From a virus: a stretch of 37,816 nucleotides of DNA. Below, in pieces: positions 2,629 to 30,993 of this stretch (position 1 is its first letter; every line of letters starts with the position of its first letter). The translations under genes and the position numbers were made by a program. Under the pieces are notes generated by a model. It saw only the letters and a list, made by a program, of their open reading frames with translations, was not told the origin of the DNA and did not search any database. The DNA lies in the IMG/VR virus record IMGVR_UViG_3300021960_006589, positions 1 to 37,816 of that record. The stretch is one strand, 5' to 3'.

Positions 2629-3400
2629 AATACGCCTCGTATATTTTGTTAGCTATCATTTCGTGACCTTTATCGTTGGGGTGACTGTCTTCTGGTCCAA
2701 ATGATTTATCAGTTTCCCTAATAAGATCATCTATTGTATTGCCTCCTATTGATTTAAGTGTAGGCCAATCCACAAAGGTTTCATTGTCAATGTGATTAAA
2801 AAGATTTTCATCTAGTAAAGTTTGAACAATCTCCTTAATAGGAGATTTATTTTTATGTTTTGAAACAATATATTCTATAGGACTAATTGCTTGAATAAAG
2901 ATATGATTAATATTATTAGAGTTGCAGTAGTTTTGTATAACAAATATATTTGTCAACCAATCGTTTATTGATTTACTCATATATCTGCTCCACATGTGTT
3001 GCTTAACAATATACTCTCCTAAAGCAATTGCTGGCTCAATCATTATTTTATATCTGTTGACTTTATGAACAGAATTGTTGTAGTGCCCAATAGGATCAAT
3101 GCTGATATCCTTAGTGAATCCAGTTTTGTTTATTGTAGATTCCCAGTGAGACACTCTACCAGCATTAGTCCAAGCTATGCAAACACAATCAGGATCACCA
3201 TTAACAGCAATGTAATTAAAAAAATCTCTTAGTATAAAGTTGTTACTAGCACCGACATAAGCACCATTGTACAGCAGCCAATCGTCTCCTAGTTTCTTCT
3301 TTACAATTTCTGGCCAACACGTTGTTAATCCTGTTTGATATTTTTTAGACCAATAATCCTTATCTGTAAAACTATCACCACAACAATACAATTTCTTCAA
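2609..3400 (-). CDS. SGNH/GDSL-type hydrolase (copy 2), TTG start
   Basis: 263 residues. CCGDSFTDKDYW (GDS at 8-10) gives the serine block, YVGASNNF a possible glycine/asparagine block, and EDSHPNDKGHE the C-terminal Asp/His block. No ATG fits before the GDS strand. The best start is TTG at 3400, which overlaps the preceding stop (TTGA) and has GGAG about 10 nt upstream, so translation is probably coupled to the carbamoyltransferase gene. A second TTG three codons later is possible. Same family as the gene at 1849-2628. Likely a secreted-type fold esterase or acyltransferase acting inside the infected cell, since no signal peptide is visible. Substrate unknown. Confidence 0.75.
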   Translation of the reverse strand: MKKLYCCGDSFTDKDYWSKKYQTGLTTCWPEIVKKKLGDDWLLYNGAYVGASNNFILRDFFNYIAVNGDPDCVCIAWTNAGRVSHWESTINKTGFTKDISIDPIGHYNNSVHKVNRYKIMIEPAIALGEYIVKQHMWSRYMSKSINDWLTNIFVIQNYCNSNNINHIFIQAISPIEYIVSKHKNKSPIKEIVQTLLDENLFNHIDNETFVDWPTLKSIGGNTIDDLIRETDKSFGPEDSHPNDKGHEMIANKIYEAYYDNYIR

Positions 3401-4713
3401 AACACTTTTACTCCATATAGCTTTTCAAAACCTTTTGCATGCTTTATATTATCAACCATAGGTTTACCCTTTACATTCAAAGAAGTATTCAGTAGCATTG
3501 GACATTGAGTTTGTTCATACCATTCTTCGAGTATAGGTCTTAACACAGACTTACAATCCTTCTTTACAACTTGAACTCTAGCTGTGCCATCAACATGAGT
3601 TACTGAACGATGGTCATGTTTTGCCACCGCCACATACTGCATATATTCGTTCATAGGACCAGTAAAGTATTCATCTGCATATTCTTCCAATATGGCTGGA
3701 GCAAATGGTCTGAATCTTTGACGTTGCTTTATGTCATTGACTGTATCTTTAATATCCAAACGAGGATCGGCTAGAAGACTTCTATTGCCTAATGCTCGTG
3801 GTCCAAATTCAGCCTTACCATTCGCCACCCCACAAACAGAGTTATCTAATAAGTACTTAACTACTTCTTTTGGGTTTACTTCTCTGTCTATGTTGGTACC
3901 AAGATAAGGACTAACCCAGTTAAGTTGTTTGTCAAGATAAGCAGCTGCAGCTCCTAATGATGATCCAGCATCACCTGGATTTGGAAATATCCACACATCA
4001 TTAAATAGTGGTCTTATCTTAGTATTTGCAACACAATTAAGAGCTACCCCTCCACCATAGCATAAATAAGCAGAGTATGATCTCGCCTTTGTCATAATAT
4101 TAATTATTTCTTTTTCGAGATATTTTTGAGCACTAGCAGCCAAAGTATTTTTATCTACCGCAGGCATATGCAGCCCCCTACAACCCCTATGTAGATTGTA
4201 CTCAGAAAGATACGAAAGGTCAACAGGTAAAGACCCATATGCAGCCATCCCCATTAAGATATATTCATCTTCCATAGGCTTCAAACCAACATAATCTGTG
4301 ATTGCCGAATAAAATAATCCTAAAGATTTAGGATATCGCATTGACCATTTCTTCTTTTTATTATACCATATAGAAGCCGTATCCCATTCACCTATAGCAT
4401 CAATTACGACACAAACAGGTTCTTCTTTGAATGGTCTGGTATAGTAGGCAGCAGCGGCGTGCGACCAGTGGTGATCAACATAGGCGTTATGCTTATCTCT
4501 AGTGACCCAACTCTGGCCATATAATAGTCTTCTTATGTTCTTTTTAAATGGTTTTTCATAGAAGACTGTAAAGCCATTGATATCGACATGAAGTTTACGA
4601 TCATTCTTTTTTCTTGAGTGTCGCTCACTGTGATGAGCTTCAATAATATCCTGCCCCTCTAAATAACAATAAGCAGCATCGTGAAACCCATAAGACAATC
4701 CAATTGTAGTCAT
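3397..4713 (-). CDS. NodU/CmcH-family O-carbamoyltransferase
   Basis: 438 residues, somewhat short for the family (usually 500-600). The N-terminal Kae1-like domain is clear: IGLSYGFHDAAYCY, then VDHHWSHAAAAYY with the metal-binding His residues, VVIDAIGEWDTASIW, and YGGGVALNCVANTKI. The C-terminal YrdC-like part has AEFGPRALGNRSLLADPR and FRPFAPAIL, signatures of carbamoyl transfer. The family uses carbamoyl phosphate and ATP, through carbamoyl-AMP, to carbamoylate a hydroxyl on a sugar or other small molecule. Similar genes occur in T4-like cyanophages. It leads a leftward operon with two SGNH genes and starts 10 bp from a divergent glycosyltransferase. An exact late promoter box lies 30 nt upstream. 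Acceptor unknown: glycan, nucleotide or DNA base. Confidence 0.9.
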   Translation of the reverse strand: MTTIGLSYGFHDAAYCYLEGQDIIEAHHSERHSRKKNDRKLHVDINGFTVFYEKPFKKNIRRLLYGQSWVTRDKHNAYVDHHWSHAAAAYYTRPFKEEPVCVVIDAIGEWDTASIWYNKKKKWSMRYPKSLGLFYSAITDYVGLKPMEDEYILMGMAAYGSLPVDLSYLSEYNLHRGCRGLHMPAVDKNTLAASAQKYLEKEIINIMTKARSYSAYLCYGGGVALNCVANTKIRPLFNDVWIFPNPGDAGSSLGAAAAYLDKQLNWVSPYLGTNIDREVNPKEVVKYLLDNSVCGVANGKAEFGPRALGNRSLLADPRLDIKDTVNDIKQRQRFRPFAPAILEEYADEYFTGPMNEYMQYVAVAKHDHRSVTHVDGTARVQVVKKDCKSVLRPILEEWYEQTQCPMLLNTSLNVKGKPMVDNIKHAKGFEKLYGVKVF

Positions 4714-22280: not shown

Positions 22281-24122
22281 CTACGTTGAAGTTACAGGTA
22301 CTGCAGTTGCAAATGACTGTGATAGATCAAAATCAAGAATATCTTCTCTTAATGGTGATACAGCACTTTGATTTGCTGGCAATACACTAATTTTTATATT
22401 GTTTACTCCTCCTATAATAGCATTAGGAATAAATCCATTTATAGTAAGAGTACCTGCTGCAGAGTTAAAACTACCCGCATTATCTACAACAACAGAGTTT
22501 CCATCTAAAGATACAATCTGTAGTTTATTAGAGCTTAGTTGATTTTTAAAGCTACATGAAATACCATTTACTGCAAATGCTGTACTTCCTACTATATAAT
22601 CTACATCATCTGGTACTGCTATAGATGCAGGAAATCTGAGAACAATATTATTCTGTTGACCAAGAAGTGGAGTAATTCGTTGTTGCATTTTAACTGTAAT
22701 TCTAGAAGAAAGAACAGCAGGAGAAATTTCATCGATTAGAGTTAGAAGGTTTGAACGTCTAAATGATTGTCCAAACTTTCCTAGATTATTATTAAAGTAA
22801 TTCGTTACAACTGTATTAACATTGTCTGTAATAGTATTAAGAGATAGAGTAGTAAGCTTATTATTAAATTGAAAAAATGTGCCAGTTTCTATAAATGTTT
22901 TTACAGGGTCCACAAATCTTAATCTAAAAGATACTACTGATAGTTGATCAACTAACTCTTGAATGCTATTTTTAGTAGTAGTCTGAGTAGATGTAGGTAC
23001 ATCATCTTCAAATACTATTGACATAAACACAGCGCCAAATTCTGGCTTTAGAGCTTCTTCTCCTCCGTAAGCTTTAATATCTTTTATGAGAGTAGAAAAA
23101 TTACGAAGAACTAAAGAGGAATAATCATCAGAAGTTACCATTCTATTTTGTGATGCATATTGAAAAGGAGCATTCGTTCTGATTGATTGATCAGTCTCTT
23201 TTACATCCCCTCCTAGAGAGTTGGTTACAGTAGTTGCTATAATTGGATAATTTGTTCCTTGACCTACATTTGTACCTCCTACGTTCACTGTAGATATGGA
23301 TGAGAATGTAGTTCCTTCATTAGCATCACTACCTGTAACTGATAAGTAGTCTACTTCTATCTTGTATCCGGCTTTAGGGGTGACTCCAAATGTATTACCA
23401 TCTCCAAAAGATAACTCAAAGAATCCATTAGGAGATTCTTTAATTATATAAATTGCAGTTTGAGAGTTAATAAGAGTAGCGTTTTTAATATTTGTATATG
23501 TAGTAAAATCTACTGAAGTAGGACTCTCATATACTCTAACAATAACTGTATCAATGTCTAAATTTTTATCTGGAATAATATAAAGAGCGTCTTGAGATAT
23601 AGCATCAGCAACAAAGGTTTTTGTTTTCTGTGAGCCTTCAAAGATTGTAATATTAGATGATCCGGATGCTGTTTGAAATCTATATATACCTGATCCATCA
23701 TCAACTGCACTTACTGTTTCTCTAGTTTGAAATGTAAAGCTTACATCATCTATAGAGCTGTTAAATAGTAATCCTGGTGTTAACGATACGATAGAAGGTC
23801 TGTTAGATAAAGTAGATAAATTAATAGAAAAATTTACTACTGCTCTTGAGGCAGTCATAGATTTAGGTATATATCCAATACCTTCAGCTAACGACACGAG
23901 AGAGCTTCTCAGCTGTGCTGTCCCAAGGAATGACTCGTTCAATGCGAAGTTAGCGATAAGGCCATTGTAGTGAGTATTATAAGCTAGGACATCAAGTATA
24001 TTAGAAAGACCTGAAGCTTCGAAATTATAATCAGCAAACTCATCTTGCTGAGCCAAGAACGTCTTTAAATTATTTTTTATAGACGTAAAATCTAAGTTGG
24101 TTGACTTAATTGTTGTTGCCAT
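22281..24122 (-). CDS. 6: Baseplate wedge subunit gp6
   Basis: 613 residues (T4 gp6: 660). The N-terminus resembles gp6/gpJ-type proteins: LDFTSIKNNLKTFLAQQDEF, then ILDVLAYNTHYNGLIANFAL and LRSSLVSLAEGIGYIPKS. The middle contains the gpJ-like segment YQYASQNRMV-type region (FQYASQNRMVTSDDYSSLVL) and KAYGGEEALKPEFG. gp6 dimers form the inner ring that holds the wedges together and binds gp25 and gp53. It overlaps gp25 by one base, so the pair is translationally coupled. Confidence 0.92.
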   Translation of the reverse strand: MATTIKSTNLDFTSIKNNLKTFLAQQDEFADYNFEASGLSNILDVLAYNTHYNGLIANFALNESFLGTAQLRSSLVSLAEGIGYIPKSMTASRAVVNFSINLSTLSNRPSIVSLTPGLLFNSSIDDVSFTFQTRETVSAVDDGSGIYRFQTASGSSNITIFEGSQKTKTFVADAISQDALYIIPDKNLDIDTVIVRVYESPTSVDFTTYTNIKNATLINSQTAIYIIKESPNGFFELSFGDGNTFGVTPKAGYKIEVDYLSVTGSDANEGTTFSSISTVNVGGTNVGQGTNYPIIATTVTNSLGGDVKETDQSIRTNAPFQYASQNRMVTSDDYSSLVLRNFSTLIKDIKAYGGEEALKPEFGAVFMSIVFEDDVPTSTQTTTKNSIQELVDQLSVVSFRLRFVDPVKTFIETGTFFQFNNKLTTLSLNTITDNVNTVVTNYFNNNLGKFGQSFRRSNLLTLIDEISPAVLSSRITVKMQQRITPLLGQQNNIVLRFPASIAVPDDVDYIVGSTAFAVNGISCSFKNQLSSNKLQIVSLDGNSVVVDNAGSFNSAAGTLTINGFIPNAIIGGVNNIKISVLPANQSAVSPLREDILDFDLSQSFATAVPVTST

Positions 24123-24568
24123 TATCTCAGCCTCGATAGGTTCGTAGTGAATGTTACTATTTCTTGTGTGCTAATTATTTTAAAAACTACAGATACTCTC
24201 ATATCGTTTTGATCTGGAAGAACATTAACACTTATATCTTCTATGGTTACTCTCGGTTCGTAAAATTGAATAGCGTTTATAATATTTTCTCTTACTTCTT
24301 CTTGCGTTTCCTCATCTGCTAACTCAAATAACAAACCTCTTAGATTAGCACCAAAAAAAGGTTGAAATGGCTTTTCATAAAAATCTGTTAGTAACAAGTT
24401 TTTTACAGCTTGCTTTACTGCAGCTGCATCTCTCTTCTTGTAAACATCTCCAACTGGACGTTTATTAAAGGTAAGATCAATATCTAAATAATCTACAGAT
24501 CGAGTAGATACAAGCGAAGTCTTTTGCAGATTGCCATCTTCTGTAGATAATACTTTTCTTATAGCCAT
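24122..24568 (-). CDS. 25: Baseplate wedge subunit gp25
   Basis: 148 residues (T4: 132). Contains FYEKPFQPFFGANLRGLLFE, INAIQFYEPRV and ISVNVLPDQNDMRVSVVFKI, matching the gp25/GpW-like wedge family. It links the wedge to the first sheath ring and is conserved in contractile systems. The ATG at 24568 follows GGAA. An exact late promoter box lies 23 nt upstream, so it heads the transcript that continues into gp6. Confidence 0.93.
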   Translation of the reverse strand: MAIRKVLSTEDGNLQKTSLVSTRSVDYLDIDLTFNKRPVGDVYKKRDAAAVKQAVKNLLLTDFYEKPFQPFFGANLRGLLFELADEETQEEVRENIINAIQFYEPRVTIEDISVNVLPDQNDMRVSVVFKIISTQEIVTFTTNLSRLR

Positions 24569-24601: not shown

Positions 24602-25711
24602 TTAAATTAGAGTGTTTGCTATAGCAATGTAAGACTCAGGAGTTAAAGACTTTCCATCTAACCCAAGAGTATATTCGCTGGCATTTAAGTCAATAATTCT
24701 TACATTATGTCCAAATCTTGTACTTTGCTGAGAAAGTTCTGAAAGTATAGTAGCTCTTACTGCCTTTTGTCTATCTACATTACCTTGAGTAGTTAGAGGA
24801 GGAAGTAAATATGTTACAACATGTCTCTTATTTGCAGCGGTTCCTACAATTTTGGCTACAGATCTTGCTATATCAAAAGGCTCATCTGTAGTAGTTACAG
24901 CATCATTGTAACCAGTAGATATTACTACGTTTGATTCCTTTTTAATTTTTCGTAAGTTTTTAAATATTTCATTATTTCTAGCAAGTCTACTATCTTGTGC
25001 ATAAGACTGCCATGGTGCTCCTCCATAAGCTCTAAGTAGCCTAGCATGAAAATCACCTAATGTAAAGTAACCTTCAACTTCATCAGGAACGTCAGCTGGA
25101 AATTCTACTTTACTTATCGGAGATTCTGTAACCTCAATCAACTGACCACTAGCTAGTAAAGTATTGTTAAACTGAGTTTCACTAGTACCTTTAAAATTAA
25201 CATCGTAGTTAATTGGTATTTCAGGTGTCTGTATAATAATTTGAGCGTTAAGAGTGTCTTCTTGATTAGTGTCATAATCTAAAATAATCTTATCAAAAAA
25301 ATCAAGGTATATTTTTATATACCTAATTAATTCAAAAGTTTTATCAATATCCATTTTTTTATTTCGTCTTAACTCATACACTATACTTCGACCTGTAGTA
25401 GCTAAGTAGTTTGGATTAGTATCATTTTCTGTTATTTTCTCTTCTGGATCAGCTTTATATAACCCTTCTACAACTACTAGTTTATGAGAAGCGAATTTTT
25501 TATTATTACTAATACTTTTTAGTATTTGAGCATGTGGTAGAAGGTTTCTAGCAATCTGTTTACGTTGCTCTTGATCTGTAATGTGATCTAGTGTAATGTT
25601 TTTTAGAAATGTTCCTACTGATATACCATCATTTAAAGCAGTAGTTGCAGATATACTGTTAAGGTTCTCTGGTAAAAAACGTAAGTCAGGAAGATAATTT
25701 GGTCTGGACAT
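24602..25711 (-). CDS. SGNH-fold-like baseplate-region protein, probably inactive
   Basis: 369 residues. The C-terminal 155 residues follow the SGNH hydrolase order: LGDFHARLLRAYGGAPW (219-235) where GDS normally stands, VVISTGYNDA (262-271) as GxND, and LGLDGKSLTPESYIAIAN (349-366) where DGxHLTPEGY is expected. The nucleophile Ser is replaced by Phe (GDF) and the catalytic His by Ser (DGKS), so hydrolysis is unlikely. The N-terminal 200 residues are not recognised and contain a helical stretch (FELIRYIKIYLDFFDKI). It lies between the spike gene (1-bp overlap) and gp25, so it may be a structural hub or spike protein derived from an esterase. Function is inferred. Confidence 0.7.
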   Translation of the reverse strand: MSRPNYLPDLRFLPENLNSISATTALNDGISVGTFLKNITLDHITDQEQRKQIARNLLPHAQILKSISNNKKFASHKLVVVEGLYKADPEEKITENDTNPNYLATTGRSIVYELRRNKKMDIDKTFELIRYIKIYLDFFDKIILDYDTNQEDTLNAQIIIQTPEIPINYDVNFKGTSETQFNNTLLASGQLIEVTESPISKVEFPADVPDEVEGYFTLGDFHARLLRAYGGAPWQSYAQDSRLARNNEIFKNLRKIKKESNVVISTGYNDAVTTTDEPFDIARSVAKIVGTAANKRHVVTYLLPPLTTQGNVDRQKAVRATILSELSQQSTRFGHNVRIIDLNASEYTLGLDGKSLTPESYIAIANTLI

Positions 25712-27105
25712 TACACTTTAATCCTTTTAGCTGTGAGAGCAGAAGAAGGACTTCCTAGAGGAGTTTGACCTTGTATTACTGTAGAGGAAATATCTTCTAC
25801 TGTTGATATATTAGGAGGGGTGGTATTAGCGTACTCAGGAGAAAGCTTACCCTGTGAAATCATAAGAGATATAAACTCTGAATTATTTCTGTGAGCTGGA
25901 TCTCTTAGTTTTCTTCTTACTTCTTCCGGAGATATTTCTTTATTAGAGACTCCAGCAGTCTTTACAGATAAGTTAATATTGTTTTTCATTATATCACTAG
26001 GATCTACTTTAACCTTTTTAGCTCCTTTAGTGCTTTTTGTTCTATAGTCAGCTAAGAGAGTAGATGTAGGTTTAGCAGTTGCTGTTGTATCAGTTGGTGT
26101 ATTTGTAATTGAACCGCGTACACCTACACTACCTGTATATGTAGATGGAGCAGCACTACCATCTGGATAAGATTGATGTTCTGATGTAGCAGCAACATCA
26201 GCAGTACCATCCAGATCGCCGTGGAACGTTGGTGCGGTTACACCAGCTGTAAAAGTGCCAGACACTCCATAGATATTCTTTACATAAGCAATTATATTTT
26301 CACCACCTATCGTACCTGTATCTCCAAATACAGATAAGTTATCAGCAGCTATGTTAGCTTCTGCAGAGGTAAGTACAATCTCTTGTTCTGCAGTCATAGT
26401 TAGTATACCTGATACTGCTTTTACATCATCACCTTCTACAAATAAATTATTAATACCTTTTACTACAGTAGTAAGACCTTCTAGGTATTGATTAGCGCCA
26501 GCTCCTGTAACGATGCTAGTTTGATTGCCATCTACAGTCTTTATATCATCTCCAGATATAGAAGTTTCTACTGGACCTCTTACTACTTCTGTTTTCTTAG
26601 AAGAATTAACATTAAACTCTCCTCCAACATTAATATCTAAATTACCTGAAACATCTAAGGTTAAGTTACCTTCAAATGTCATGGTACCATTCTTTACTTC
26701 AAGAAAGTAATCTTCATTTGCTTTATCTATTCTTCTTTTACCTGAAATAATAATACTACCATCAGGTCCTATATTAATACCGGTACCAGATTTATGGCGC
26801 AGCATTATTCTCTCATTACCTGGAGTATCATTATACTCTACTGTATGCCCTCCTGGGGTGTTAAAGGCTTGAACTTTACCATATTCGTTATTAGTACCTT
26901 GAATGGTATCATCCGGAACATCTGCACCATATAGATCAATCTGCTTACCACCATTATTTGTTACAGGTTCTCCTTCTCCTCCTGGTATAGGATGTATACC
27001 TCTAGGATCATTATACCCGTCTGTGATTATACCTTGAGTTTGAGTTCTACCGCTACCTAAGGTATTACTTCTTTCTAATAAACTTTCTACATTCTTAACA
27101 GACAT
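25711..27105 (-). CDS. Central spike-like protein with beta-helix (gp5 C-terminal-like)
   Basis: 464 residues. About residues 80-250 read like the gp5/VgrG spike: FNTPGGHTVEYNDTPGNERI, LRHKSGTGINIGPDGSIIIS, then repetitive strands (GTMTFEGNLTLDVSGNLDIN, GGEFNVNSSKKTEV) expected of a triple-stranded beta-helix. The Ser/Thr/Pro-rich part after about 300 (SVGVRGSITNTPTDTTATA) and the C-terminus are not recognised. In T4 the beta-helix is the C-terminal part of gp5; here it is a separate gene, downstream of gp5 with the amidase-like gene in between. It probably forms the membrane-piercing needle below the hub. One-base overlaps on both sides suggest matched expression. Confidence 0.78.
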   Translation of the reverse strand: MSVKNVESLLERSNTLGSGRTQTQGIITDGYNDPRGIHPIPGGEGEPVTNNGGKQIDLYGADVPDDTIQGTNNEYGKVQAFNTPGGHTVEYNDTPGNERIMLRHKSGTGINIGPDGSIIISGKRRIDKANEDYFLEVKNGTMTFEGNLTLDVSGNLDINVGGEFNVNSSKKTEVVRGPVETSISGDDIKTVDGNQTSIVTGAGANQYLEGLTTVVKGINNLFVEGDDVKAVSGILTMTAEQEIVLTSAEANIAADNLSVFGDTGTIGGENIIAYVKNIYGVSGTFTAGVTAPTFHGDLDGTADVAATSEHQSYPDGSAAPSTYTGSVGVRGSITNTPTDTTATAKPTSTLLADYRTKSTKGAKKVKVDPSDIMKNNINLSVKTAGVSNKEISPEEVRRKLRDPAHRNNSEFISLMISQGKLSPEYANTTPPNISTVEDISSTVIQGQTPLGSPSSALTAKRIKV

Positions 27106-28484
27106 TATATGCTCCCTTGAGCTGCAGCAATTAGTTGTTTAGTTGAGAATGATCTAGCCGCGCTTCCCTTATTAACCTTTTTAAAAGATTCTATAATTGA
27201 GGCTATAGGAACTCCAACTTCTACTTCTGATTCACCTATATCTAGCTGTGCGTCAAATATTTGACCTCCAGGCCAAACCTCGTAAAAAGTTTCAGCTATC
27301 ATTCTTACTGTCTCCCCTTGCTTAACTGTAGCTGATGTATCTTTTATATGTGGTACAACTATGGCAATAGAGTAGTCTGTATGAGTATCTGAATGATCTC
27401 CAGCTTTAAAAATGGTTCGACCTTTTTGTAAATTACCATTAGGTAACACTACATAGTGAAAAGGCATTCCATCAGATCCAGCTTCTACATAAGTTTTATG
27501 TATATCATTAGCTGTTAATACTTGATTGGCTGTCATTTCATGTCCATAAAATACTAACTCTGTAATCTCTCTAGTACATTTCAAAAACTCTACGTTTAAA
27601 TACTCTTGAGTAGAAATCATTTCAAAAAAGACATCTGGAGTTTTAGCTCCTTTCCATTCATTAGCTTTACTTGTAACATCTAGTACTTCAGTAGTTGCTT
27701 CTCCTTTTAACGGACTCTCTACTTGACTTGCTATATTTTCAGGTACTTGATCTAAAGCTTTTTCTACTGTCTCTGGTGGTAATTTGGTTGTCTTAACCAC
27801 ATCGTCTACAGCTTGACTCTTATCTCCAGCTAAAACTTTCTTCAATACTTCAGGAGATTGTTCTGGGGTAACTCCTAAATTCTCTATAATACTTAGTGAT
27901 GTATTATCTACAGATAGAAAAACATCTTGTAATAGATTACCAGTTTTAGATCCTAGAAGGTTAGAAAATGCCGATGTAAAAGCACCTATAGAGCTAGAAA
28001 AATCCCCAGCAAAAGATGCAAAATCTTTACTAACTAAATCACCAACTTGAGACGAGTATTGAGAGGGTAAAATATTTGTAAGTATACCATTAAGCTGACT
28101 ATCAGAAGGAGTTGCAATTGCTCCTATAGCGGTCTTTACTCCTTCAGCTGTAGGGTTAGTAATAACAGCATCTAAAAATCCATCTGCTACAGCTGCCCCA
28201 GTTATAGCGTTTAGAGCTGTTTGTGACGAACTTACATCTTTAACTACCTGACTTTGTAGTCCAGGTAGGTTTTCGGTTAGAATAGCCATTCCCTTTTTAG
28301 GATCGGAAGCTGTATTTAAGGCTTGAACCCCACTAATAGTTTCATTTAATGTCCCCCCTAAACTTGAGGAGTTTAAAGCTTGTATAGAAGACGCAATATT
28401 AGAAGTGGAAGATACTAAGTCGGAAAATCCAGATGATATACCTAAACTTTTTAACTTATTATTAATTAAATTTAAACTTGTCAT
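27105..28484 (-). CDS. Tail protein with amidase_2/PGRP-like domain
   Basis: 459 residues. The first 280 are Ser/Thr/Ala-rich and low in complexity, with short helices. From about 308 an N-acetylmuramoyl-L-alanine amidase-like domain appears: ELVFYGHEMT (H315), then GMPFHYVVLPNGNLQKGR (H343), then AGDHSDTHTDYSIAIVV (H364). The middle segment closely follows the amidase pattern YHyvIxrdGxvxxGR...GxHaxxxNxxSIGI. The first His is in a changed context (YGHE rather than HHT), so zinc binding needs checking. It would cut the peptide side chain of peptidoglycan, complementing the gp5 lysozyme domain. Located between gp5 and the spike gene, so probably carried on the hub. Confidence 0.72.
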   Translation of the reverse strand: MTSLNLINNKLKSLGISSGFSDLVSSTSNIASSIQALNSSSLGGTLNETISGVQALNTASDPKKGMAILTENLPGLQSQVVKDVSSSQTALNAITGAAVADGFLDAVITNPTAEGVKTAIGAIATPSDSQLNGILTNILPSQYSSQVGDLVSKDFASFAGDFSSSIGAFTSAFSNLLGSKTGNLLQDVFLSVDNTSLSIIENLGVTPEQSPEVLKKVLAGDKSQAVDDVVKTTKLPPETVEKALDQVPENIASQVESPLKGEATTEVLDVTSKANEWKGAKTPDVFFEMISTQEYLNVEFLKCTREITELVFYGHEMTANQVLTANDIHKTYVEAGSDGMPFHYVVLPNGNLQKGRTIFKAGDHSDTHTDYSIAIVVPHIKDTSATVKQGETVRMIAETFYEVWPGGQIFDAQLDIGESEVEVGVPIASIIESFKKVNKGSAARSFSTKQLIAAAQGSI

Positions 28485-29599
28485 TATCCACTAAACTCCG
28501 TATATACTGCTTTTGAGTCGGCTAGTCTTTGGAGGTATTCTTGCTTATAAGATTTTAATGCAAGACTTTGTCCTGAACGTCTCTTCTCATAAGTTTTAAT
28601 CCCACCTGCTCTTATGTATGTTCTGTAGTTACTTACATCAGCTCTCTCCCTCATAAAGTCAACAGAGGTCTGAGGGTTCTCATATTGAGAGAATACTGTT
28701 TCAGTAGCTGACTCCAGAGTCTGATCATCTTTTAAATAAGAAAATACAAATGACATACTACCTTCTAATTCATGAGTAACAAAAGATAATTGCAAAGCTA
28801 AGCTTCCAACATATGCGTTGTGTTTAAGAGCATACTCTTCTAGCGGAACTCTTCTTCTTTTTCCAGTCCATTGAGCTAGTCCATACCCCCCTCTACTACC
28901 TGACACAGCAGGTTGATCTTCATTAGTATTAGGTTCCAACCTAGGACCAGCCTCGTGCATAAAATTACCTACAAAAGCTGCAGCTATAAATCCAGGGTTA
29001 TTATGACCTCTTTTTTGAAAGTATCCTTTAAGGTAATTAAAGATCTGCTCTTTTCTACCACTACCTACTAGCTCTATATTAATATCACCTGAACCAGCAG
29101 TCAGTCCGTTTAACTCATTAGCCTGATCTTGATCTAAGAACTGCCCATTAGGTCTCGCTCCTGCTTCTTCTAATCTTAACCTCATTGCCTGACTAATCTG
29201 ATCTCCTACTAGGTACTGATAAGATTCAGATGATTGAGTGGTTGGTACATAAGTATCTTCAGGGCCATCAAATGCAACTCTAAAAGCAGGGTTATGAGGT
29301 ATAGAACCTATAACTAAAGGAGTTTGAGAATGTTGTCCATCCATAAAAATACCAAACACCTGAGCTCCAACCTGAATACCTATTGGCTGTGTTACCTGAG
29401 ATGTACCTCCATCTGTTACAGGAAGCACAACATTAGCCCATGGTAGATCTGTATCTGCAATAAGATCTGTGCGATTATTATGAATGCCAAATATTCTTAC
29501 TCGCACTCTACCTAATCTATCAGGATCATCTATTGATCGAATGACTCCTATAAACCATCTCGTATCATCCCCGTAATATTCTGTATTAATAGTTCTCAT
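28484..29599 (-). CDS. 5: Baseplate hub subunit and tail lysozyme gp5 (without beta-helix)
   Basis: 371 residues. The N-terminal OB fold matches gp5/VgrG (WFIGVIRSIDDPDRLGRVRV, then DLPWANVVLPVTDGG and GAQVFGIFMDGQHSQTPLVI). From about 185 a Phage_lysozyme2-type domain follows: IFNYLKGYFQKRGHNNPGFI, AAFVGNFMHEAG (E216 as likely acid) and GGYGLAQWTGKRR (237-249). This differs from the GH24 lysozyme inserted in T4 gp5. The protein ends without a beta-helix, which is encoded by a separate gene nearby. It would open peptidoglycan at the tail tip during entry. It overlaps the gp27-like gene by ATGA and the amidase-like gene by one base. Confidence 0.88.
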   Translation of the reverse strand: MRTINTEYYGDDTRWFIGVIRSIDDPDRLGRVRVRIFGIHNNRTDLIADTDLPWANVVLPVTDGGTSQVTQPIGIQVGAQVFGIFMDGQHSQTPLVIGSIPHNPAFRVAFDGPEDTYVPTTQSSESYQYLVGDQISQAMRLRLEEAGARPNGQFLDQDQANELNGLTAGSGDINIELVGSGRKEQIFNYLKGYFQKRGHNNPGFIAAAFVGNFMHEAGPRLEPNTNEDQPAVSGSRGGYGLAQWTGKRRRVPLEEYALKHNAYVGSLALQLSFVTHELEGSMSFVFSYLKDDQTLESATETVFSQYENPQTSVDFMRERADVSNYRTYIRAGGIKTYEKRRSGQSLALKSYKQEYLQRLADSKAVYTEFSG

Positions 29600-30993
29600 T
29601 TGGTTTTATCCGTAAGCTTTACAATGTCCATAATTGTATCATGAATACCTTCTGTAAATTTATGTCTAGTTCTATAAATAAGAAATTTTCCAGACTTGTC
29701 TTTATCTAGTTGATTACTTCCTTTACTAACCATAGTTGATTCAGGATAATGAACTTGAATGTTTGTCCCTACTCCTATACCATCACTAGCCAAATAAGGT
29801 ATGCCTGTTACATTAATCTGATACACATTGTTCATTAAGATTGCTCTTAATGAAGCTGATTTAATTTTTAACTTGTAAAGAGCTGATTGTTTTGGTTCAT
29901 CATGATAACCCGCTAACGGAGTTTTACCGTCTTCTTCATAATGCTGTCTCGAAGTTACAATACTACTAAAAATCTTAGAAGGAAATGATGAAATGTTTAT
30001 CTCTCTCTTCTCTGTAGGTCCCATCATTAAAGTGTTATCATACCCTAGAGAGGATTCAATATCTGCTCCTGTGTCTATACTCTGTACAAATTTATTTAGA
30101 GTTTCATTAGCACTATGAAAGCTCTCTGCAGAAGTAGTTCCTGAAGTTAAATCATGAACGTTAAAATGACTACCAATTGCTCCTCCTTCAGCTAACCTCA
30201 ATGTGCTTTCAACACTTGTAGCTGTAAAACTTTTTATATGAAATAACTCTTTTCTAAGTCTATCCGGAGAATTAGATGATCCAGGATCTGTAATAGCAGC
30301 TGCTTGGGAAAAAGTATAGGCATCTTCTTTATTCCAAGCATCTTCTCTCATTAGAGTATCTAAATCGTTCATGACAAGGTTATCATTACGAAGGGTAGAG
30401 TATAAAAAATACGGACTACCATTAGAGTATGCCATTCGATCTCTTAACCAATCAGCAGCTTCTAAAGGTTTCCAGTATGGGATGTTAACTCTCATTGGAC
30501 TTTGCTGAGAAGAATTTCGGCTAAAGAAAAATATTTCTTTATTAAGCTCTGATTTTAAAATGTTTGATATAATTAACTCAGGGTGACCTTTATAAGACTT
30601 ACTTATTTTTTGTATATTAGAAAGATAAGCATGTTCCTCTAACAGAGTTACAGTATGCACTTCTGTTTTATCATTAACAGACTTATTAGAAGCTAATCCT
30701 GTTATCATAAAGTTTTTTAAAAATAGTTTAGAAGACTCTTTAGCCTGTAATCCTATCTGTATTTTTTCACTACCTTTAATTCCAAATTTACTTTTTAGTT
30801 TAGTATCATCTACAAAGGTCATAGATGCAGTTAGATAGGGACGCTCTAAACTTTCATATATGTTAAGTTCAGCTACAGATCCTCTTATATCAATCGGTTT
30901 AGAGTTGGGGTTATTATTTTGACTGAATTCAGGAAACCTATCAGTATAGAATAATACTCTCTCTATAATATATTGGCTTTGAGCGTTTGACAT
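29596..30993 (-). CDS. 27: Baseplate hub protein, gp27-like
   Basis: 465 residues (T4 gp27: 391). The start SQYIIERVLFYTDRFPEF and segment VAELNIYESLERPYLTASMT, with HTVTLLEEHAYLSNIQKISK and IPYWKPLEAADWLRDRMAYS, fit the hub fold shared by gp27, Mu gp44 and the N-terminus of VgrG. It forms the trimeric ring joining the tail tube to the gp5 spike. Position directly before gp5, with ATGA overlap, supports the call. The match is by fold pattern and context rather than close identity. Confidence 0.8.
   Translation of the reverse strand: MSNAQSQYIIERVLFYTDRFPEFSQNNNPNSKPIDIRGSVAELNIYESLERPYLTASMTFVDDTKLKSKFGIKGSEKIQIGLQAKESSKLFLKNFMITGLASNKSVNDKTEVHTVTLLEEHAYLSNIQKISKSYKGHPELIISNILKSELNKEIFFFSRNSSQQSPMRVNIPYWKPLEAADWLRDRMAYSNGSPYFLYSTLRNDNLVMNDLDTLMREDAWNKEDAYTFSQAAAITDPGSSNSPDRLRKELFHIKSFTATSVESTLRLAEGGAIGSHFNVHDLTSGTTSAESFHSANETLNKFVQSIDTGADIESSLGYDNTLMMGPTEKREINISSFPSKIFSSIVTSRQHYEEDGKTPLAGYHDEPKQSALYKLKIKSASLRAILMNNVYQINVTGIPYLASDGIGVGTNIQVHYPESTMVSKGSNQLDKDKSGKFLIYRTRHKFTEGIHDTIMDIVKLTDKTK

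Follow-up and report, generated by a model that had tools for sequence, protein, structure and literature searches.

A split T4-like spike module with an amidase fold lacking its zinc site, and reciprocal loss of lysozyme and amidase sites among its relatives

Gene layout of the spike module

We analyzed a 37.8-kb virus record (37,816 nt; IMG/VR record IMGVR_UViG_3300021960_006589, positions 1 to 37,816), here called the window, with focus on its predicted tail spike genes, where an amidase fold has lost its zinc site and where relatives show a reciprocal loss of lysozyme and amidase sites. The minus strand carries a T4-like baseplate operon in the order gp48/54-like, gp53, gp27-like, gp5-like, a protein of 459 amino acids (aa), spike, a 369-aa protein, gp25 and gp6. 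The list of open reading frames (ORFs) and the family searches showed that the gp5-like, amidase-fold and spike ORFs abut one another, all on the minus strand, which confirmed the layout of separate neighbours claimed in a first-pass annotation made from the sequence. The features of the module are:

28484-29599, minus strand: gp5-like protein, 371 aa, OB fold plus Phage_lysozyme2-type lysozyme (Pfam PF06714 and PF18013; PHROG 430 positions 12-129)
28700-29062, minus strand: lysozyme domain of the gp5-like protein, residues 180-300 (profile A7 against 3csr)
27105-28484, minus strand: 459-aa protein, helical N part and C part of T7-lysozyme/PGRP fold (PHROG, profile, AlphaFold model with Foldseek)
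27174-27608, minus strand: amidase-fold domain without an intact zinc site, residues about 293-437 (alignments, column reading)
25711-27105, minus strand: separate beta-helix spike, 464 aa (PHROG 430 positions 331-588, E 1e-20; weak Gp5_C match below cutoff)

The same gene order was found in the relatives L003-L013 and L020-L022 (L numbers are our handles for surveyed loci), at about 45-82% protein identity and as far as the contigs reach. Since the layout recurs, the arrangement in the window is not due to chance.

The lysozyme domain and the separate spike

The gp5-like protein had been described as an OB fold joined to a Phage_lysozyme2-type domain, and this was borne out by matches above cutoff to both Pfam families, PF06714 (Gp5_OB) on the N-terminus (E 1.3e-6) and PF18013 (Phage_lysozyme2; E 2e-19, 70.6 bits vs. 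a cutoff of 28.2). This was further supported by a profile of the window and 14 relatives (A3), which matched T4 gp5 in the PDB (E 8e-19). A profile of the lysozyme domain (A7) matched phi29 gp13 (3csr, E 1.5e-10), and counted along the printed alignment Glu216 of the window aligns with gp13 Glu45, a Glu that is invariant in all eight A7 rows. Excerpts of one study give Glu45 as the suggested catalytic residue of gp13, and report that its counterpart Glu41 in a structurally similar GH184 enzyme was essential by mutation (PMC10394673). The window lysozyme retains this predicted catalytic Glu.

PHROG 430, the family of T4-type gp5, is split over two window genes, with positions 12-129 on the gp5-like protein and positions 331-588 on the spike, and by tblastn the spike matches genes annotated as gp5 or tail lysozyme in T4-like phages. 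When we checked order and fusion state in relatives, the spike was an ORF of its own in 112 of the 116 gp5 rows whose contig extends 6 kb or more downstream; in the other four (L049, phage C48C1; L211, Mosig; L212, HTVC008M; and L216) a match to the spike profile lies on the OB protein itself. Hence the split is a lineage trait rather than a peculiarity of the window phage, and the separately encoded beta-helix spike of the first-pass annotation stands. T4 gp5 is cut between residues Ser351 and Ala352, and the helix-bearing trimer has only 10% of the monomer's lysozyme activity (PMC3004832, excerpts). As OB fold plus lysozyme and beta-helix are separate genes in the window, a T4-like cleaved state of the chain would arise without proteolysis, as had been proposed; the gene layout is consistent with this.

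The amidase fold and the loss of its catalytic site

An amidase_2-like protein was expected between gp5 and the spike. Its position and a T7-lysozyme/PGRP fold were supported, but Pfam gave no Amidase_2 match on the 459-aa protein at E 1. The PHROG 'amidase' family matched at E 7e-5, and a profile of the window and 10 relatives (A1) matched T7 lysozyme at E 6e-4. In the AlphaFold model, residues 271-440 have a block-mean predicted local distance difference test (pLDDT) score of 73-93 (68 for the whole model), and Foldseek with this domain returned LysCS, T7 lysozyme and a PGRP at E 1e-4 to 7e-4, while the N part is helical and poorly predicted. In the syntenic relatives L030, L033, L043 and L045 an Amidase_2 domain was found above the Pfam cutoff, and a profile of seven intact syntenic relatives matched T7 lysozyme (E 1e-22), and the H, H and D of these proteins fall on its zinc ligands (H17, H122 and C130). 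The match of the hidden Markov model (HMM) profile to T7 lysozyme, the Foldseek result and the homology to intact syntenic relatives rule out a chance likeness to amidases. By tblastn against GenBank phages the 459-aa protein had no match at 1e-5; a related intact protein hit lysozyme, amidase or endolysin genes or unannotated ones among the matches listed (25 of 917). Three relatives (L044, L045 and L047) have an extra ORF of 297-340 aa between gp5 and the intact amidase.

The catalytic site was judged from alignments and not from 3D coordinates. The ligand slots of the window are occupied by Tyr313, Gln413 and Glu422, and Phe342 replaces the catalytic Tyr (Y46 in T7 lysozyme), so that neither the H/H/C nor the H/H/D ligand set of zinc amidases is present. 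Throughout the 11 rows of A1 the first slot is Tyr or Phe and the third is E, P, S, N, T or K, and the ligand is lost from both in 11/11; the second slot is Q, R, E or N, or His in two rows other than the window, and the catalytic Tyr position is Phe in every row. When A1 is aligned to T7 lysozyme, the first slot moves by one residue and the T7 His falls over Gly314; in neither register is there a His. The claim of an added activity on the peptide bond side of peptidoglycan was consequently not supported, as the zinc ligands, whose absence had been named beforehand as evidence against it, are missing at the sequence level. Intact versions do occur in syntenic relatives, and the idea of a second amidase may therefore hold for those.

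According to excerpts of a study on T7 lysozyme and PGRPs, the Y46F change in T7 lysozyme and Y78F in PGRP-LB abolished activity, and all the PGRP-LB mutants described, single zinc-ligand mutants included, still recognised peptidoglycan (PMC8124813). The fold without its site is under purifying selection in relatives, with a ratio of nonsynonymous to synonymous substitution rates (dN/dS) of 0.02-0.13 across four pairs formed among six relatives (the pairs share sequences, and the window is not among them).

Reciprocal loss of the two sites in relatives

To place the window among its relatives we recorded the state of the lysozyme Glu and of the amidase ligands in 219 gp5 rows from 266 loci, the window included. 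Each scan returned the best 80 of a limited list, and the counts are samples, not a census. Two scans were baited with gp25; both drew on one set of patterns and 583 shared candidates and differed in the first sequence used for ranking, so they are one sampling frame, some contigs of which were also returned by other scans. In 40 of the 219 rows one or the other domain could not be scored, because the contig was truncated, another enzyme fold was present or no domain was found; the remaining 179 were clustered at 90% gp5 identity into 125 clusters, none of which mixes states; the tree has 124 tips (one row left out). A few rows needed a decision: L156 had its Glu read by eye, as the HMM alignment broke off there; L128, which has a gap in the Glu column, was excluded; L309 (H/H/E) was scored as having lost the zinc site and L221, with Asp for Glu, as having lost the lysozyme; and L203, whose sequence holds a DPYFDV motif, was counted as intact. 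L264, L267 and L278, with an OB-only gp5 and a short amidase that has two of three ligands (possibly through a one-residue shift of the first His), stayed outside the clusters.

The counts show a statistical avoidance of double loss. Both sites are intact in 45 of the 125 clusters, the lysozyme Glu is lost in 44, the amidase site in 35 (nine of them the window's own clade) and both in one (Fisher p 1e-7, which ignores kinship). In the 48 clusters obtained with the gp25 bait only, both sites are intact in 19, the lysozyme is lost in 11, the amidase in 18 and both in none, with a probability of no overlap of 0.0024 at fixed margins, again ignoring kinship. Fourteen different residues stand in place of the lost Glu, and the Gln of a nearby AQW motif tracks the Glu, being present in 76/80 clusters that keep the Glu vs. 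5/45 that lost it. On the amidase side, 31 of the 36 clusters that lost the site keep no ligand and five keep one. Among three contigs from metagenome-assembled genomes, whose origin is unreliable, L287 has lost the Glu with the amidase intact and L288 keeps the Glu with the zinc site lost, both in line with the reciprocal pattern, and L289 has no amidase match.

Parsimony on a gp53+gp27+OB tree required a minimum of 10 state changes for the lysozyme and 6 for the amidase. With irreversible loss over the 124 tips, a model with its own rate for the second loss beat independence in a likelihood-ratio test (LRT 17.4, one degree of freedom) and placed the second loss at 0.065 of the first-loss rate; reversible models still favoured dependence (LRT 10.4). 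When the window clade was removed, the irreversible LRT was 14.6 and the reversible one 8.8 or, with the other root, 3.9. In the 542 of 4000 simulations under independence that had margins near those observed, at most one double loss was seen in 0.4%, with a mean of 12.7.

Other hydrolase folds were found at the locus in some relatives. L031, L034 and L035 have a 905-aa gp5 that joins OB, an M15-like stretch (by motif only; Pfam found no peptidase on the L031 protein) and the amidase fold without its site in one chain. A lytic-transglycosylase-like sequence was seen by motif in L082, where the amidase is intact, and in L323, where its site is lost, and L222 has a sub-threshold Hydrolase_2 match and L050 a CHAP domain above cutoff. 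Other enzyme folds in the slot of some contigs without Phage_lysozyme2 would agree with one live hydrolase per hub. Separately, M15-like peptidase matches below cutoff lie near the spike C-terminal end in L048:7254-9158 (Rhizobium phage RHph_I1_18) and L210:5665-7665 (Methylophilales phage Melnitz).

The protein downstream of the spike

24602-25711, minus strand: spike-associated protein, 369 aa (Pfam GDSL match below cutoff; SGNH/GDSL-like fold of the C half)

The best Foldseek match of the C half was the peptidoglycan O-acetyltransferase PatB (E 7e-5), followed by GDSL-type esterases. In 16 aligned rows of this family (window included, some near-identical) GD[F/I/V/L]H stands in place of GDS, and the His of the last SGNH motif is found in 0/16; the first SGNH motif of the window product falls in a stretch of low pLDDT. 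The C half is possibly a second pseudoenzyme beside the spike. The N half matches the C-terminal half of long ORFs, including spikes of relatives (e.g. L031:4402-6468), with 97 of 98 matches in ORFs of at least 600 aa, and in other relatives it forms separate ORFs of about 200 aa. Being fused in some relatives and separate in others, it indicates that the spike has been split or joined in different lineages.

Interpretation and alternatives

Taken together, we read the window as a split T4-like spike module with a dead amidase fold, whose relatives usually keep at least one live hydrolase in the two slots, and give this a probability of roughly 0.7. After tail contraction the spike would pierce the outer membrane, and the phi29-type lysozyme, carried on the hub by the OB protein, would reach the peptidoglycan, where, judging from its family, it would open the glycan strands. 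The protein encoded between them is probably a zinc amidase in many relatives; in the window its catalytic centre appears to be gone, and the fold may persist in the virion without a catalytic role, its most likely use being to bind peptidoglycan or to pack spike and hub together. The lysozyme and amidase slots would be partly redundant, so that either can decay to a pseudoenzyme or be swapped while one live hydrolase is usually kept. We also entertain, tentatively and with the odds somewhat against it, a two-slot module under a rule of at least one live enzyme, in which the dead amidase, and perhaps the SGNH domain, has come to read the peptidoglycan and position the one live hydrolase; this would be the viral equivalent of the transition from catalytic to non-catalytic PGRPs in animals. 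The fold alone would suggest a second hydrolase, and a pseudoenzyme is the better reading. The reciprocal decay, with losses recurring on both sides, is a natural experiment on the number of wall-cutting activities a contractile tail needs, and it opens to test the idea that virions use dead hydrolase folds as peptidoglycan-binding parts.

Several observations weigh against this reading. L193 (L193:752-3186) has lost the lysozyme Glu and all three zinc ligands, the sole scored contig to do so, and by eye no third enzyme was seen on its 6 kb, a length that leaves room for one elsewhere. C48C1, HTVC008M, Mosig, L040-L042 and L216 have neither module by the lysozyme and amidase HMMs; a Pfam scan of the OB proteins from C48C1, HTVC008M, Mosig and L216 returned no hydrolase (L040-L042 and neighbouring genes were not scanned), and a C48C1 gene annotated 'peptidase' had no Pfam match. 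As no hydrolase was recognised in those relatives, a hydrolase at this locus is not universal. Loss of motif residues does not prove lost activity, and in PGRP-LB the effect of mutating one zinc ligand varied with the substrate, from reduced to abolished activity (PMC8124813, excerpts). On the statistical side, the reversible models fit better than the irreversible ones (independent log-likelihood -62.7 vs. -79.7), which suggests module exchange and hence fewer independent events than the parsimony count. Without the window clade, one reversible variant falls to the LRT of 3.9 given above, and with unconditioned margins at most one double loss occurred in 4.4% of 4000 independence simulations. 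The treekit independent-pair test had too few informative pairs.

The pattern could instead be a host effect, if the peptidoglycan chemistry of the host makes one enzyme useless, so that it decays, and the other required. Recurrent, apparently reversible state changes on the tree and swapped enzyme folds favour such an effect; however, it leaves the long retention of a dead fold unexplained when taken alone. We regard it as unlikely. Similarly improbable, in our judgment, is that the two-by-two pattern is mostly shared ancestry and sampling, with a few old lineages that fixed their states and scans that returned their neighbourhoods. Trees of the domains themselves, with the catalytic columns removed, need only at least 9 lysozyme and 3 amidase changes, and among scans that keep the best 80, the one with an HW motif in its patterns (A4) returned intact amidases only, in 61/61 scored contigs. 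Against this, the gp25-only bait gives the same pattern and the tree-based models still favour dependence.

The amidase-fold domain might also still be a metal enzyme with a rewired site that uses clade-specific His residues. His315 and His379 are invariant in all 11 rows, His315 is two positions away from the former ligand slot, on the same predicted strand, and the second slot is His in two rows; on the other hand, the catalytic Tyr is uniformly Phe, slots 413 and 422 are variable, and other clades lose the zinc site in different ways, which together make this quite improbable. A second, live amidase adding peptide-side cleavage, the proposal of the first-pass annotation, has the amidase fold, the position and the intact relatives in its favour, and we reject it as highly implausible, since all four catalytic-site positions are changed in the window.

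Comparison with known systems

Hubs and tail tips with several hydrolase folds are already known, in A-1(L) and phi29 gp13. The gp5-gp27 complex of T4 shares with the window a gp27-like hub gene beside an OB-fold protein, a wall lysozyme and a beta-helix spike. In T4 these parts of gp5, with a T4L-type lysozyme, are one chain cut at Ser351/Ala352 (PMC3004832, excerpts), whereas the window has separate genes, a lysozyme of the phi29 gp13 type (PF18013) and an extra amidase-fold protein between them. A T4L-type lysozyme and a beta-helix in the same chain, which mark T4 gp5, were not found in the window. With gp13 of phi29, a podovirus, the window shares the lysozyme family, the Glu aligned to Glu45 and the presence of two wall-related folds at the tail tip; gp13 is one chain, and its second domain is of M23 type, described as LytM-like (PMC10394673, excerpts). 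The hub protein gp15 of the Anabaena myophage A-1(L) likewise has several wall-hydrolase folds on the hub, as three domains in one chain, with activity reported for the endoglucanase and the peptidase and no result given for the lysozyme domain (PMC10966104, excerpts).

Non-catalytic PGRPs such as PGRP-LC and PGRP-LE have a T7-lysozyme fold without the zinc site, as does the window protein (PMC8124813, excerpts), although they are animal receptors that keep the Tyr, whereas the phage protein has Phe and is a putative peptidoglycan binder. In phage Melnitz (L210) the OB protein and spike are separate genes as in the window, with VanY/M15-like matches below cutoff on both, and the amidase HMM had no match on its 19.8-kb stretch. 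In open-licence PMC full text we found no account of spike hydrolases that decay reciprocally, nor of a dead amidase encoded in this place.

Flanking genes

29596-30993, minus strand: gp27-like hub protein (PHROG 350 'tail protein', E 4e-38; location between gp53 and gp5)
24122-24568, minus strand: gp25 wedge protein (Pfam PF04965, 7e-14)

The product of 29596-30993 is presumably gp27, a name that we assign from its position. Elsewhere in the window, 3397-4713 encodes a carbamoyltransferase, with matches to the N and C domains at E 2.5e-37 and 5.5e-46.

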